Notes under the pieces: model-generated
What the model saw: the letters and a program-made list of their open reading frames with translations, nothing else
Databases searched by the model: none
Told to the model about the DNA's origin: nothing
Origin: Streptomyces sp. NBC_00390
Lineage (GTDB): Bacteria > Actinomycetota > Actinomycetes > Streptomycetales > Streptomycetaceae
Assembly (NCBI RefSeq): GCF_036057275.1
Contig: NZ_CP107945.1
Span: forward strand, 5,084,001-5,148,000
Direction: 5' to 3'
Length of the DNA stretch: 64,000 nt
In this document: piece by piece, positions 47,909 through 61,711 of the stretch
Numbering within the stretch: position 1 is the first letter of the stretch
How the letters are laid out: each line of letters starts with the position of its first letter
Made by a program: the position numbers and the translations under genes

Positions 47909-47929
47909 GACGTTTTTGAAACTCTTGTG

Positions 47930-47952
47930 GAGCACGTCAATACGGCGTGCTC
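47930..47952 (+). terminator. Hairpin with T-rich tail after the anti-sigma gene
   Basis: GAGCACG (47930-47936) pairs with CGTGCTC (47946-47952) around a 9-base loop, followed by TTTGTCTT. This is a good intrinsic terminator. Confidence 0.65.
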
Positions 47953-48042
47953 TTTGTCTTCCCTCCCCAAGGCCTCAGGCGTACCTTGAGCGCCCGATCT
48001 GATGTGTCGTCAGTCAGTAACGTGCGCACGAGGGGAAGTCGA

Positions 48043-48708
48043 GTGTCGTACCAGAAGCGGACAGCTCTCGCGCTGGCAGCAGCGGTGGCGGGCTCGGTGG
48101 TTCTGATGACCGCCCCCGCCGCGCATGCCACCGTCGTGGACGTCGATTACAAGTGCCGGACGCCCATCGGCCCGAAGGCCGCGGTCTCACCGATCGACAT
48201 CAAGGCCGTCAAGAGCGGCAGCTCCTACAAGCTCACCATGTCCTTCCAGAAGGGCGTCTCCTCCAGCCCGGTCGAACTGGGCAAGGGGGCCATGAACCCG
48301 AGCGCGCTGATCGAACTTGGCGGTGCCGAGGGGGGCAAGGTGCCGGTCTCGGGGCCGGCCAACGCCGCGGCCATCCCGGCCAACACCCCCATCAAGATCA
48401 ATGACTTGTCGGGTACGTACACCCCGAAGAAGAGCGGGAAGGTCACCTTCACGGCCGGAGTGCTGACCATCAAGGCGCTCGGTACGACCACGACCTGCAC
48501 CCCCGGCAACAGCCCCGGGCCCTCGCTGGAACTGGACGTCACGGCTGCCGGCGGCAGCTCGCAGGCGTCGGCGTCCGGGGAACTCCCCAAGACCGGCCCG
48601 CTCGACTCGGCGACCGCACTCGCCACGCTGGGCGGAACGATCCTGCTGTCCGGGGCCGCGGGTGTTCTGTGGCTGACCCGGCGCAGCGGCGGCCGGATCG
48701 CGAGCTGA
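48043..48708 (+). CDS. Secreted protein with LPKTG cell-wall sorting signal
   Basis: 221 residues. The signal peptide covers about 1-29 (hydrophobic ALALAAAVAGSVVLM, cleavage after AHA). The mature domain (about 30-165) has VDYKCRTPIGPKAAVSPIDI and a second Cys in KALGTTTTCTPG, so one disulphide is likely. The C-terminus has LPKTG at 181-185, a hydrophobic stretch and RR, a textbook sortase signal. The domain is a paralogue of the C-terminal domain of the protein at 50738-52093. GTG at 48043 has GAGGGGA 6 bases upstream. It is the first gene of a four-gene operon. Function unknown. Confidence 0.88.
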   Translation: MSYQKRTALALAAAVAGSVVLMTAPAAHATVVDVDYKCRTPIGPKAAVSPIDIKAVKSGSSYKLTMSFQKGVSSSPVELGKGAMNPSALIELGGAEGGKVPVSGPANAAAIPANTPIKINDLSGTYTPKKSGKVTFTAGVLTIKALGTTTTCTPGNSPGPSLELDVTAAGGSSQASASGELPKTGPLDSATALATLGGTILLSGAAGVLWLTRRSGGRIAS

Positions 48709-48711
48709 GCC

Positions 48712-49521
48712 GTGCGGGCCGCCGCCGTTGTCGTCCTGGCCGCGCTCCTGTGCGCGCTGGGCACTCCCGCGACGGCGTCCACCGGCTGGAGCGTCGACAG
48801 GGAGTACGTCTACCTGGAAGGCGCGCCCGGCACCGTGTTCGAGGACCGGTTCTCGGTGACCAACCCGGAGGCGAAACCGCTCACCCTGCGGCTGCGCCTG
48901 CCGCACCGCGCCCTGTCCACGAGCCCCTGGATCGCCCTGGCCGCCGACACCGTGACGGTCCCGGCCCGCACCCGGGCCGAGATCCCCTTCACGGTCACGG
49001 TTCCCGCGGACGCGCCGCCGGGTGACCACCCGGTCGCGATCACCGCACAGGGCGCGGGCCGGGAGGCTCCCGTACGCGTCAGCCTGCGGATCAGCGGCCC
49101 CCGCCTCGCGGCGCTCACCGTGGAGGACGTGACGTACTCGGACGGACAGATCCGCTACTCCCTGGTCAACCGCGGCAACACGACACTGGTCCCACGTCTT
49201 TCGGTCCGCGCGGACGGCGTCTTCGGCACCCTCCTGGACCGCCCTGCGCGCACGCTCCCGGTGAGTCTGCCCCCGTCGGGCCGCGTCAGCCTCACCGAGA
49301 AATGGCCCGACCCGCCGGCCCTGGACACGGTCGACATCCGTCTGGGCGTCACGGCTGCGGGCTCCGCCCATGCCGAGTCGGTGCTCTCGGCGACGTTCGT
49401 CCCGTGGCGCCTGCTGTCACCCCTGCTGCTGCTCCTGCCGGCCTGCGCCCTGTGGCTGTACACCCGCCGCGCCCGCACCCCCGCCCACCACCACCGCCGC
49501 CCGGCGAGATCAGGAGCCTGA
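48712..49521 (+). CDS. Membrane-anchored surface protein, WxL-interacting (DUF916)-like
   Basis: 269 residues. A signal peptide (1-23) is followed by immunoglobulin-like beta domains: VYLEGAPGTVFEDRFSVTNPEAKPLTLRLRL, then PARTRAEIPFTVTVPADAPPGDHPVAITAQ, then a second domain from about 120. A C-terminal membrane helix (about 228-245, LLSPLLLLLPACALWLY) and a His/Arg-rich tail end it. This layout matches the DUF916/WxL-interacting proteins of Firmicutes, though similarity is by pattern only. It begins with GTG only 3 bases after the LPKTG gene, without its own RBS, so it is translationally coupled. Confidence 0.78.
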   Translation: MRAAAVVVLAALLCALGTPATASTGWSVDREYVYLEGAPGTVFEDRFSVTNPEAKPLTLRLRLPHRALSTSPWIALAADTVTVPARTRAEIPFTVTVPADAPPGDHPVAITAQGAGREAPVRVSLRISGPRLAALTVEDVTYSDGQIRYSLVNRGNTTLVPRLSVRADGVFGTLLDRPARTLPVSLPPSGRVSLTEKWPDPPALDTVDIRLGVTAAGSAHAESVLSATFVPWRLLSPLLLLLPACALWLYTRRARTPAHHHRRPARSGA

Positions 49522-49523
49522 CG

Positions 49524-50741
49524 ATGCGAGGCATCCCGCCCGTGCCCCGCGCCCATCCGTGCCGGGCCGCCGGGCCTGCCGGTCCGGCGGGTTCCGCCCG
49601 GCGTTCGCTGCCTCGTGCCGCCGATCCGGCGGACACCGGTGTCCCCGCGCCTGCCCCACCGTCCGCACGGCGCGAAGCTGTCGCGCTCGAGGTGTCGGGG
49701 CGCAGGCTCCCGCGTACCCCGGCCTCCGGGCGGATGCGGGGGCTTGCCGCCGTCGTCCTGCTCGCGCTCCTGTTCCTGCTCCTGCCGGCCGCCCAGGCTG
49801 CCGCCGCCCCCGCCGAGCCCCGACCCGACGTCAAGCTCTCCGCTCCCCAGGCCGGCAAGGGCAACACCCTCAGCGTCAGCGGCACGGGCTGGCGCTCCAA
49901 GGCTTTGCTGATGCTCCTCATCTGCGGCCGGTCCACCCCGGCCAAGGGCGTCATCGGCGGCACCAACTCCTGCGCCAACGCCGACGGCCGCGCCGTCACC
50001 ACCGACGCCGACGGCGCCTTCAGCAAGAAGCTGCCGGTCGCCGAGCCGCCGGTGCCCTGCCCCTGTGTCGTGCACGTCGCCACCGTCACCGGTGAACAGG
50101 CCGCCGTGGACGCCGAGTTCGTGGTCGCGGGTCACCCCACCGCCCCTCTGCCGCAGCAGACCGGAGGCGGCCGGCTCGCCGTGCTCACCGCCACCCGCCT
50201 CCAGGGCGACTCCGGCATCCTCGTCTTCTTCGGCGCCCCGCCCTCCCGGCGGCTCGAGTTCACCGTGGGCAATCTCGGCTCCGACCCGATCGTCGACCCT
50301 GTCTTCCGGATAGGCACCGCCCACGGTGTGTTCGCCCCGCAGTGGGAGGAGCAGCAGTGGCGCGGCACGATCGCGCCCGGCCAGAAGGCACAGATCACGC
50401 TGCCCGTACAGCTCGCCTCCGGCGCCCATGGCGACTACTCGATCTCGGTGAAGTACGGCACGAAGGTGCTCGCCGAGCAGCCGTGGGGCGTGGGCCGGCC
50501 GTGGGGCGTGACGATCTTCTGGATCCTGCTCGCCGTTGTCGTACCCGCCGCCCTCTTCCGTATCGGCATGGCGATCGTCGACAAGGTCCGCCCGCCGAGC
50601 GCCCGGCACGCCCGCAGCGGACCGCGGGCCGCGGCCGGCACCGCCCGGAGGCCCGCACCCACCACCACGGCCGCGCTGCCGTGGTTCACCCCCGACTCCG
50701 CACCGTCAGAGAACCGGCCCACGACGAAGGGACATTCGTGA
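49524..50741 (+). CDS. Secreted neocarzinostatin-like-domain protein with C-terminal membrane anchor
   Basis: 405 residues. After a long polar lead (about 1-70) comes a strong signal segment (about 71-92, RGLAAVVLLALLFLLLPAAQA). The first mature domain (DVKLSAPQAGKGNTLSVSGTGWRSKALLMLLICG, later CPCVVHVATVTGEQAAVDAEFVV) resembles the neocarzinostatin-type Ig fold. A second beta domain (about 210-325) and a membrane helix (about 335-355, VTIFWILLAVVVPAALFRIGMAI) follow. The ATG at 49524 has AGGAG 7 bases upstream, but the signal peptide would fit better with ATG at 49734. The gene starts 2 bases after the previous stop. Confidence 0.75.
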   Translation: MRGIPPVPRAHPCRAAGPAGPAGSARRSLPRAADPADTGVPAPAPPSARREAVALEVSGRRLPRTPASGRMRGLAAVVLLALLFLLLPAAQAAAAPAEPRPDVKLSAPQAGKGNTLSVSGTGWRSKALLMLLICGRSTPAKGVIGGTNSCANADGRAVTTDADGAFSKKLPVAEPPVPCPCVVHVATVTGEQAAVDAEFVVAGHPTAPLPQQTGGGRLAVLTATRLQGDSGILVFFGAPPSRRLEFTVGNLGSDPIVDPVFRIGTAHGVFAPQWEEQQWRGTIAPGQKAQITLPVQLASGAHGDYSISVKYGTKVLAEQPWGVGRPWGVTIFWILLAVVVPAALFRIGMAIVDKVRPPSARHARSGPRAAAGTARRPAPTTTAALPWFTPDSAPSENRPTTKGHS

Positions 50742-52093
50742 GTACGCAACGGAGGATGAGCGCGGCCGGGGTCGCGCTGATGCTCGGCGGCGCGGGAATC
50801 CTGCTGGCCGCAAGCCCCGCCCAGGCCGCCGAGGTCTCGTACAGGACGGAGTGCATTCCCCCGCCCATCTCCGGTCTGCCGCCCGTGCAGGGCACCACCA
50901 AGGTGCAGATCACCGCCCCCGCGGAGGCGAAGGTCGGCGACGAGATCGAGGTGGGCTGGAAGACCGTGGAAGCCGCGTCGAAGAACCCTGATGTCCTCGA
51001 CCTGCAGAAGGACACGGTCAAACCGACCGGCACGGTGAAGGTGGCCGGCGCACAGACGGCCGACCTGGCGATGGACGGCCCGCGCCAGAACCCGCCGATC
51101 CCCAAGAACAGCCCGATGGTGCTGCCCGACATGAAGGGCAAGCTGAAGCTGACGGCGGCCGGAGAGATCACGCTGACCCCGGACGCGTACAACATCAACG
51201 TCTCGAAGCCGATCTCGACGGACACCAAGTGCGCGCCGAAGGAGACGGTCCCGGTCGGCGCGACGGTCAAGGTCACGGAGGGCGGGGGCGGTACGACGAG
51301 CGGCGGCACGACGAGCGGCGGTACGAGCTCCGGTGGCACTACCTCGGGCGGATCCTCCTCGGGCGGTTCGACCTCAGGGGGCACGTCCTCGGGCGGATCC
51401 ACCTCGGGCGGTTCGTCCTCCGGCGGCAGCACCACCGGAGGCGGCGGAGGAGGAGGCCAGCCCGACTTCGAGGGCAAGGAGGTCGAGGTCGCCTACGCCT
51501 GCAAGACCCCCATCGGCGACAAGAACGCCGTCTCCCCGGTGAAGATCAACGCCAAGAAGAACGGCGGCAGCTACGACCTGACCGTGAAGTTCTCCAAGTC
51601 CGTCATGGACAGTCCGGCCGACATCCCGGCGGACTCCGTCAAGCCGTCCATGGAGGTCAAGCTCGGCGGCGCCGACAAGGGCTTCGTCCATGTCGAGGGC
51701 CCCACGAACAAGGAGCCCATCAAATCCGGCGATCCGATCGAGATCCCCGATCTGACGGGCACGTACAAGCCCGGCGCCACCGGAAAGGCGACGCTCAGCC
51801 CGGGCGTCCTGACGGTCAAGGCACTCGGCACGACGACGACCTGTACCCCGCCCGCCGATGTCGCGGTCTCGCTGGAGCTCGACACCGCGGCCCAGCCGGG
51901 CGGCGCGTCCGGCGGCGGTTCCACCGCAGGCGGATCGACCGGCTCGGGCGGTACGGCCACCAGCGGCGGCCTCGCCCAGACCGGCGCCGAGGACACCGGC
52001 GCCCTGCGCGCCCTCGCCCTGGTCGCCGGCACGGTGATCCTGCTCGGCGGCGCGGTGTTCACCTTCACGCCGTGGCAGCGGCTGCGGCGCTGA
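50738..52093 (+). CDS. Secreted two-domain protein with Gly/Ser/Thr linker and LAQTG sorting signal
   Basis: 451 residues. The signal peptide is about 1-30 (AGVALMLGGAGILLAASPAQA). Domain 1 (about 31-180) has two cysteines. A linker of SGGTTSGG/SSGGSTSGG repeats (about 185-235) follows. Domain 2 (about 240-385, VAYACKTPIGDKNAVSPVKINAKKNGGSYDL to KALGTTTTCTPP) aligns with the LPKTG protein of the same operon. LAQTG at 412-416, a hydrophobic helix and a basic tail form a class E-type sortase signal. GTG at 50738 overlaps the previous stop (GTGA). It is the last gene of the operon; the palindrome at 52115-52150 follows. Confidence 0.87.
   Translation: MSTQRRMSAAGVALMLGGAGILLAASPAQAAEVSYRTECIPPPISGLPPVQGTTKVQITAPAEAKVGDEIEVGWKTVEAASKNPDVLDLQKDTVKPTGTVKVAGAQTADLAMDGPRQNPPIPKNSPMVLPDMKGKLKLTAAGEITLTPDAYNINVSKPISTDTKCAPKETVPVGATVKVTEGGGGTTSGGTTSGGTSSGGTTSGGSSSGGSTSGGTSSGGSTSGGSSSGGSTTGGGGGGGQPDFEGKEVEVAYACKTPIGDKNAVSPVKINAKKNGGSYDLTVKFSKSVMDSPADIPADSVKPSMEVKLGGADKGFVHVEGPTNKEPIKSGDPIEIPDLTGTYKPGATGKATLSPGVLTVKALGTTTTCTPPADVAVSLELDTAAQPGGASGGGSTAGGSTGSGGTATSGGLAQTGAEDTGALRALALVAGTVILLGGAVFTFTPWQRLRR
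51288..51460. repeat. Imperfect GGC-GGT-rich minisatellite coding a Gly/Ser/Thr linker
   Basis: Degenerate copies of 12- to 15-base units (GGCGGTACGAGCTCC, GGCGGATCCTCCTCG and similar) encode the flexible linker between the two surface domains. Confidence 0.75.
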
Positions 52094-61019: not shown

Positions 61020-61562
61020 TCAGACCGTCGGAGAAGCGGTGAACAGGTACGTCTTGTAGCCGGCCCCGTCGTTCGCCCACTCGAGCTTCAGCTCGGCGTC
61101 GCCCAGTCCCCTGGCCGACCCGACGCGGTAGCTGATCGTCCCGGTCGTGTACGAGCCGTTGTAGTTGGCGTTGCCGTCGCTGTTCTCCAGCTTGCTCTCG
61201 ATGCCGTAGAAGTCGGTCTTCTTGAGCACGGGGTCCGTGCCGGAGACCGACTTCTTCACCTGCTGCCGCAGGTAGGCGGCGTTGAATATCGAGGTGTCGT
61301 CGACCTGGCCGTACAGCGGTCCGTCCCAGGAGACCTTGGAGTAGCTGTAGACGGTGGACCCCGAACGGGCCGCGCAGACCGTCACCTTGACGTCCCAGTT
61401 GTCGGCCCACGGGCCGTCGTACGCCGGGTCGTCGATGCTCTTCGAGCTGGTGTTGCACTTGTAGCTGAGCGCCGACGCGGGGCCGGCGGTCGCCAGTACG
61501 GTGCCCGCGAGAGCGGTCGCGGTGAGCAGTGCGGTGACGGCCGTACGGTTGAGCTTGGTCAC
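61020..61562 (-). CDS. Secreted hypothetical protein
   Basis: 180 residues. A clear signal peptide (about 1-31, AVTALLTATALAGTVLATAGPASA) precedes a mature domain rich in Ser, Tyr, Asn and Gly with two cysteines (YKCNTSS and VTVCAARSG), probably one disulphide. It has a beta-rich pattern (STVYSYSKVSWDGPLYGQV, GSYTTGTISYRVGSARG). No family was recognised. GTG at 61562 has GGAGG 7 bases upstream. It is a single gene ending at the terminator 60961-60995. Confidence 0.8.
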   Translation of the reverse strand: MTKLNRTAVTALLTATALAGTVLATAGPASALSYKCNTSSKSIDDPAYDGPWADNWDVKVTVCAARSGSTVYSYSKVSWDGPLYGQVDDTSIFNAAYLRQQVKKSVSGTDPVLKKTDFYGIESKLENSDGNANYNGSYTTGTISYRVGSARGLGDAELKLEWANDGAGYKTYLFTASPTV

Positions 61563-61711
61563 GCAGGAACCTCCGTTTAGTGGTGCGTGATCTTCCTGTC
61601 CTGCTTAGGACAGCCGCTCGACCCGTTCCGGTTGCGGGAACTGACGTCCCATCAGTGTGATCACTGCCACGTCGGCTCGGCGGCCGGGGGAGCCGCGCCG
61701 ACCGCCCTGCG

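Follow-up and report, generated by a model that had tools for sequence, protein, structure and literature searches.

The WxL (csc) gene clusters of Firmicutes encode WxL proteins, a WxLIP consisting of DUF916, DUF3324 and a transmembrane segment, and often a small LPxTG protein (PMC1534035, PMC9772566, PMC10599100; statements on cited papers in this text refer to parts of those papers). By definition, such a cluster contains at least two WxL-domain proteins (PMC10599100), and published accounts place the WxL domain nearly exclusively in Firmicutes (PMC10599100), with over 91% of 938 sequences in PMC9772566. Most descriptions of the clusters concern Lactobacillales and Bacillales and present them as WxL-based systems for host binding or for plant sugars, and words of the Streptomyces or actinobacteria type were not found in the main texts of PMC9772566, PMC10599100 and PMC1534035. 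DUF916 genes have been reported near actinobacterial Ang-2 genes (PMC12537917), so the presence of DUF916 in this phylum is not new, and a sortase-substrate candidate of Actinoplanes carries a neocarzinostatin-like domain (PMC13251363). Here we describe a four-gene operon of Streptomyces sp. NBC_00390 at positions 48043-52093 of a 64,000-nucleotide stretch, which was analyzed as a whole and is called the window (NZ_CP107945.1, positions 5,084,001 to 5,148,000). No published account of this operon was found in the open-licence literature.

The four genes lie on the plus strand with intergenic gaps of 3, 2 and -4 bases. The coordinates confirm this layout as given by a sequence-only reading of the DNA, and the kinds of gene that it named have held up: an LPKTG protein (gene 1, 48043-48708), a WxLIP/DUF916 relative (gene 2, 48712-49521), a neocarzinostatin-like membrane protein (gene 3, 49524-50741) and an LAQTG protein (gene 4, 50738-52093). 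We consider it probable that this operon is a Streptomyces offshoot of an actinobacterial WxL/WxLIP surface cluster, in which covalent anchoring by sortase has replaced the WxL domain. The operon resembles csc clusters in its co-directional genes for secreted surface proteins, in its LPxTG member (gene 1) and in containing a WxLIP/DUF916 protein, of which such clusters have at least one and which here, by homology, is the product of gene 2. It differs from them by the absence of a WxL protein, by the shortened loops of its WxLIP, by a partner with a neocarzinostatin fold, and by two sorted proteins that carry an unnamed domain and are larger than CscD, which has 90-140 residues (PMC1534035). 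Because the operon lacks the WxL-domain proteins that define a csc cluster, it is filed here as a WxL-free variant rather than as a strict member. Its parts appear ordinary, and their combination new.

Gene 2 belongs, as judged by homology, to a WxLIP lineage whose nearest kin adjoin WxL proteins. Its product is a short membrane protein with two Ig-like domains (assigned by homology), a C-terminal hydrophobic segment and a basic tail, and the C-terminal transmembrane helix typical of a WxLIP can be read from the translation (LLSPLLLLLPACALWLYTRRAR). A paralogue from the same genome, P0005, aligns with it at 35% identity (expectation value (E) 6.6e-33) and scores 41.1 bits against the DUF916 model PF06030, above the cut-off of 27.3. 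This model is also matched at E 0.1 or better by 17 of the 18 aligned relatives of gene 2. An 18-row WxLIP profile, most rows of which are WxL-adjacent proteins and not of gene 2’s own type, matches the solved WxLIP of Enterococcus faecium (9i25, 9i1y) with an E value of 2.5e-8. P0005 used as a single query against solved structures returned enolases only (E 0.066 or worse). DUF3324 has no Pfam match in gene 2 or among the 18 relatives, WxL-adjacent proteins included; the alignment between gene 2 and P0005 spans that region. The earlier proposal of a likeness to DUF916 is therefore borne out by sequence, paralogue, profile and tree.

The two sorted proteins carry a paralogous domain, named CTD here, which profile matches show to be fused to WxL at other loci of the genus. 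Gene 1 encodes one copy (48130-48555) and gene 4 encodes two (50828-51283 and 51470-51892), joined by a Gly/Ser/Thr linker (51284-51469). The segments CxTPIG and KALGTTTTC, by which the domain had been recognized, are shared by gene 1 and the second domain of gene 4. The shared domain thus stands as described, but there are three copies and not two: a divergent copy (CIPPPISG ... STDTKC), which the sequence-only reading did not mention, forms the N-terminus of gene 4. The late cysteine (TxTxC) is invariant over 14 aligned copies, and an early cysteine is found in all 14, with its position shifted by two places in the divergent type; from this conservation, a disulphide between the two is likely. 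Pfam yields no credible match for any of these 14 copies (two single matches have E values of 0.17 and 0.21), and the CTD profile found no credible relative among solved structures (best E 0.38). An AlphaFold2 model of the gene 1 domain is all-strand, with a mean predicted local distance difference test (pLDDT) score of 92.9, and we read the predicted fold as a beta-sandwich. A Foldseek search with this model returned nothing under E 1e-3. The nearest structural neighbor is 3lso, a membrane-anchored protein of Corynebacterium diphtheriae (Z 9.2, 136 of 142 residues, 4.0 Å), which we treat as a lead only because best Z values of 7-8 are typical for models without a clear match.

The connection of CTD with WxL is evident upstream of P0005, where a secreted protein combines an N-terminal CTD with a C-terminal domain that scores 21.3 bits against Pfam WxL (cut-off 25). 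PF13731 is matched by 13 of 14 such actinobacterial WxL-like domains at E values no higher than 1 (best 5.7e-6). All 14 keep the tryptophan of the first motif, and their end reads LTLTL or similar at the place where Firmicute WxL domains have WTL. A profile of these domains found no credible relative among solved structures (best E 0.05). The idea that CTD is itself a WxL domain was rejected because the CTD and WxL profiles match separate parts of the same proteins; moreover, no CTD row has a Pfam WxL match at E up to 1. The WxL-WxLIP pair in this genome (L052) is like the operon in its CTD, its WxLIP and an upstream palindrome, and differs from it in that CTD and a WxL domain are joined in one protein, a sorting signal was not found, and no neocarzinostatin-like gene is present. 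The gene after this pair reads, by eye, like the era GTPase.

To compare loci, we assembled 74 contexts, of which 37, including the window, are of the WxL-free type; these classes were set by our own profiles, built partly from the loci counted, and because most loci were fetched for a relative of gene 2 or gene 3, the presence of a WxLIP is partly by construction. No WxL match occurs in the operon of the window or within about 5 kilobases on either side. The operon type is carried by 26 of 37 genomes of the genus, this one included (E 1.2e-30 or better), and in 11 of these 26 the WxL profile detects no WxL domain at E up to 1e-3; ten of the 11 genomes are at least 90% complete. Therefore, the operon does not need a recognizable WxL protein. 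In a tree of 73 WxLIPs with a midpoint root, the 36 WxL-free proteins form one clade (support 100/100) adjoining a group in which most members are of the CTD-WxL pair type from this genus. One WxL-free locus, L087, whose WxLIP is split over two frames into two fragments, was excluded from the tree and loop counts.

The same clade is set apart by its loops. The loop after the GDH motif has 12-20 residues in the 36 WxL-free proteins (15 in gene 2) versus 25-30 in the 37 WxL-adjacent proteins, with no overlap. Two other loops are also shorter in most WxL-free rows, with overlap between the classes: loop 1 has 12-18 residues in 25 of the 36 and 28-43 in the other 11, compared with 34-38 in WxL-adjacent proteins, and loop 3 has 6-17 compared with 11-19. 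In published models, the WxL sandwich is completed by a DUF916 hairpin, and another loop serves to buttress the two domains (PMC10599100). The loop after GDH could be either the inserting hairpin or the buttressing loop, and the loss of either one fits a loss of WxL. The parallel with Firmicute LPxTG-WxL-DUF916 clusters that had been drawn for this locus is thus real in that the systems are related, and it reflects descent rather than mere parallel, given the paralogue chain to PF06030, the tree, and the CTD held in common with WxL proteins. Likewise, calling the operon an actinobacterial version of WxL clusters placed it in the correct lineage, but clusters with both WxL and WxLIP do exist in actinobacteria, including one in this genome, and the operon is better described as a probable WxL-free offshoot.

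Gene 3 encodes, by homology, a membrane protein with a neocarzinostatin-fold domain, a second, Ig-like domain and a transmembrane segment, and proteins of this type elsewhere accompany WxL and WxLIP genes. It lies at the cut-off of the Pfam Neocarzinostatin model PF00960 (25.0 bits versus 25; 26.2 for the trimmed protein). Although its structural model is of modest confidence (mean pLDDT 69.9), alignment to neocarzinostatin with VIA-align gives a Z of 11.9 and 2.1 Å over 95 residues. The protein is far below the NCBIfam cut-off for enediyne chromoproteins (29.6 versus 86), which speaks against chromophore binding. It shares with neocarzinostatin-type apoproteins the fold of its first domain, and is unlike them in being membrane-anchored and having an extra Ig-like domain. 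A single-sequence search against solved structures found nothing. An alignment of the gene 3 model to the E. faecium WxLIP 9i25 reached Z 8.1 and was given no weight, because it fits only to 13.6 Å over 179 residues and many unrelated two-domain rows stand alongside it. The start of the gene deserves caution. A signal-peptide-like start is found at 49734, 70 codons into the frame, and among 19 same-genus matches the alignment begins no earlier than residue 88 in 17, at residue 69 in one and at residue 87 in another. The earlier residues are outside the aligned part of most orthologues, so the true start is probably 49734, and the 2-base gap between genes 2 and 3 may not be real.

Both sorting signals, LPKTG in gene 1 (48583-48597) and LAQTG in gene 4 (51971-51985), are followed in the translations by a hydrophobic stretch and a basic tail. 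Gene 1 exceeds the Pfam Gram_pos_anchor cut-off (22.3 versus 20 bits), gene 4 has no Pfam match at all, and curated sorting-signal models pass for gene 1 only. Among the WxL-free loci, LPxTG is present in all 36 first genes and LAxTG in all 30 last genes with a readable end. A class E sortase of Streptomyces coelicolor prefers LAxTG (PMC5148588), so the LPxTG protein may need another enzyme; the genome has 11 sortase-family matches.

The four genes had been expected to be conserved together, and they are: all occur in order in 30 of the 37 WxL-free loci, which is more than chance (among these, gene 2 is broken in L087 and gene 4 is cut by the contig end in L067). The remaining seven comprise four loci at contig ends (L005, L009, L069, L073), two where gene 4 was not found (L083, L086) and one where gene 1 was not found (L085). 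A search of 396 genomes across the phylum located CTD at 29 places in eight genomes, all belonging to this genus (E up to 1e-6, a threshold that CTD copies of the sister family discussed below may not reach), and all 29 are in WxLIP loci; this CTD search, like the WxL search in genomes of the genus, is independent of the choice of loci by gene 2 and gene 3. Neocarzinostatin-like relatives occur in ten of the 396, again in WxLIP loci in 10 of 10; ten candidates per genome were scored for CTD and four for neocarzinostatin-like proteins, so weaker relatives may be missed. This exclusive occurrence is our main ground for proposing that the CTD and neocarzinostatin-like proteins work with the WxLIP.

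A sister family in the same order (f3) carries genes for an LPHTG-CTD protein, a WxL protein, a WxLIP and a neocarzinostatin-like protein in a row at nine of nine loci (L057, L099-L106), and six of the nine WxL proteins match the CTD profile in their N-terminal part. This cluster is like the operon in the close grouping of LPxTG-CTD, WxLIP and neocarzinostatin-like genes; it differs in having a WxL protein, and no two-domain LAxTG protein was found in it. In more distant actinobacteria, neocarzinostatin-like genes are also found near WxL and WxLIP genes (L011, L053, L054, L055). From this distribution, the set of LPxTG, WxL, WxLIP and neocarzinostatin-like genes is likely the older form, and in Streptomyces the WxL gene would have disappeared and the LAxTG gene been acquired.

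A palindrome, ATCTGATGTGTCGTCAG, lies at 47997..48013 on the plus strand, 29 bases upstream of the gene 1 start codon, and is a probable operator. Its core, CTGA-N7-TCAG, precedes gene 1 at every one of the 36 loci where that gene is present, and among the 13 pair loci it precedes the CTD-WxL gene at 11, the exceptions being L061 and L098. The stricter pattern CTGAYR-N3-YRTCAG occurs twice in the window versus 0.05 expected by chance. Over 858 kilobases of contexts it has 58 sites, 55 of them no more than 320 bases upstream of a CTD or WxL gene; the other three, as read from coordinates, are in the sister family, close before the WxL gene. By class, whole-context scanning places strict sites in 34 of 37 WxL-free loci, 11 of 13 CTD-WxL pair loci, 9 of 9 loci of the sister family and 0 of 15 WxL loci without a detected CTD. 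The palindrome therefore follows CTD and not WxL. The pattern was chosen after the window had been viewed, and three CTD-WxL loci fetched later (L174-L176), all of which have the palindrome, are the only out-of-sample test.

These features suggest how the operon might work. The ectodomains of the gene 2 and gene 3 proteins would bind the CTD domains as their partners and keep them at the inner face of the wall, and covalent linkage of the products of genes 1 and 4 to peptidoglycan by sortase would replace the non-covalent anchoring provided by WxL. The two sorted proteins would use different sortases, one for LPxTG and one for LAxTG, and the flexible linker of gene 4 would display one CTD further out. 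A regulator binding the palindrome before gene 1 would probably be common to the operon and the CTD-WxL locus. The likely outcome is a membrane-to-wall surface complex, and we infer that all four products join in a single one. A soil lineage that dispensed with WxL and kept its partner would be a natural experiment on the role of the WxLIP, suggesting which of its loops serve WxL. The operon also opens the complex to study in a non-pathogen, contributes a wall domain that lacks a credible Pfam match, and provides, through the common palindrome, a first testable handle on physiology.

Other explanations must be weighed against this one. The operon might still use WxL, with the WxL protein of the second locus binding gene 2 in trans and the sorted proteins serving as extra members, like CscD of lactobacilli. 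The palindrome and the CTD that the two loci have in common (including the three palindromes in loci fetched later) would fit such an arrangement, and a WxL domain that could take part is encoded elsewhere in 15 of the 26 operon-bearing genomes. We nevertheless regard it as quite improbable, given the 11 genomes in which no WxL domain is detected and the shorter loop after GDH in all 36 gene 2 homologues measured. A different possibility is that the four proteins form no common complex, and that genes 1 and 2 and genes 3 and 4 specify separate membrane/wall pairs under one promoter. Compatible with this are the two proteins of each kind, membrane and sorted, the difference between the sorting signals, and the loci where gene 4 or gene 1 was not found. 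The gene order, however, is identical in all 30 loci with all four genes, and in the sister family the WxLIP and neocarzinostatin-like genes accompany one LPHTG-CTD and one WxL protein; separate pairs thus seem unlikely to us. The notion that Ig-like membrane proteins and sorted proteins were assembled independently, and that the likeness to WxL clusters is convergent, draws on the fact that Ig folds are common and that gene 2 alone is below the DUF916 cut-off. The paralogue chain from gene 2 to PF06030 and the tree, in which WxL-adjacent WxLIPs are the nearest kin of gene 2, led us to reject convergence, and with the CTD common to the operon and WxL proteins this notion is close to refuted.

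Our preferred explanation, descent from a WxL/WxLIP cluster with covalent anchoring in place of WxL, must also accommodate several observations that weigh against it. Gene 2 itself reaches only 13.7 bits against PF06030, and as a single query against solved structures it found nothing. Every printed score of an actinobacterial WxL domain is below the Pfam cut-off (15.8-21.4 versus 25). The 15 operon-bearing genomes with a WxL domain elsewhere have a candidate participant, and the three loci where gene 4 or gene 1 was not found imply that not all parts are always needed. The losses of loop and WxL fall on one branch and thus count as one evolutionary event, not 36. Finally, the second domain of gene 3 aligns with the second domain of the WxLIP with an hhalign probability of 52%, a weak, suggestive value (four other domain pairings give 6% or less).

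The palindrome also occurs far from the operon. The pattern ATCTGAYRNNNCRTCAG has 14 matches (13 distinct sites) in this genome and 0 for a reversed control, and 13, 16 and 17 matches versus 0 in three other genomes. Genes near the sites in this genome encode thiolases and luciferase-type monooxygenases, a protein of the acyl-CoA ligase type (AMP-binding), a flavin reductase, a PorA-family protein and a nitronate monooxygenase (families assigned by Pfam for nine of ten proteins scanned). By these family names, the sites look like a lipid- or steroid-type catabolic regulon; those of the three other genomes were classified by eye, and some have no lipid-type neighbor. A literature search on the palindrome yielded nothing that was recognized. 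Given one palindrome that precedes the operon as well as its CTD-bearing WxL relatives and that also lies near genes of thiolase, acyl-CoA ligase, luciferase-type, PorA-family and related kinds, one may speculate that the operon is a WxL-free WxLIP complex within a lipid- or sterol-acid catabolic regulon, acting as a wall-spanning receptor or carrier for hydrophobic substrates, but we hold this to be rather doubtful. Similar palindromes can belong to different regulators, and one regulator for both gene groups is a possibility.

Several of the sites in this genome are grouped in one stretch at 4.72-4.79 Mb (L120-L126), among thiolase, acyl-CoA ligase, luciferase-type and flavin reductase genes, and this group is a candidate regulon. 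Another site, near 5.770 Mb (L129; also L168), precedes an apparent gene for a secreted Asp/Lys-rich protein that adjoins a sortase gene; the gene start was placed by eye, and the sortase may share the control. Within the window and outside the operon, a second copy of the palindrome (61641-61655) lies about 80 bases before a gene for a small secreted protein (61020-61562, minus strand).

A terminator-like hairpin at 47929..47953 on the plus strand, with 10 pairs and a TTGTCTT tail in a consensus scan, lies between the operon and an upstream HATPase-type gene and suggests separate transcription of the operon. Taken alone, this is weak evidence, as the scan found two terminator-type hairpins in the region versus 1.2 expected. 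Sigma factor, STAS-domain and HATPase-type genes lie upstream of the operon in 35 of the 37 loci (exceptions L085 and L117), and a POT-type transporter gene lies downstream in 31 of 37, with five of the six misses at contig ends; these neighbors are named from a reading of their sequences.

Some other WxL loci have distinctive features. At L010:4025-9641 and L062:2600-8191, WxL and WxLIP genes adjoin, as judged by eye, genes for a sortase-like membrane protein and a PstB-like phosphate ABC ATPase. The catalytic segment of a sortase usually reads TLxTC, and that of the sortase-like protein seems to read LVTGSGA or TLVTASGA, without the cysteine; it is possibly a pseudosortase in another WxL cluster. 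The same order of WxL, WxLIP and small WxL genes is found at L107, L108 and L111. Again by eye, a gene for a PstS-like phosphate-binding secreted protein is located just upstream of the WxL gene at L053:9318-10811 and L062:8250-9248. The WxL-like protein encoded at L054:3634-5142 contains an HtaA domain (Pfam, E 5e-42), a family associated with haem uptake.

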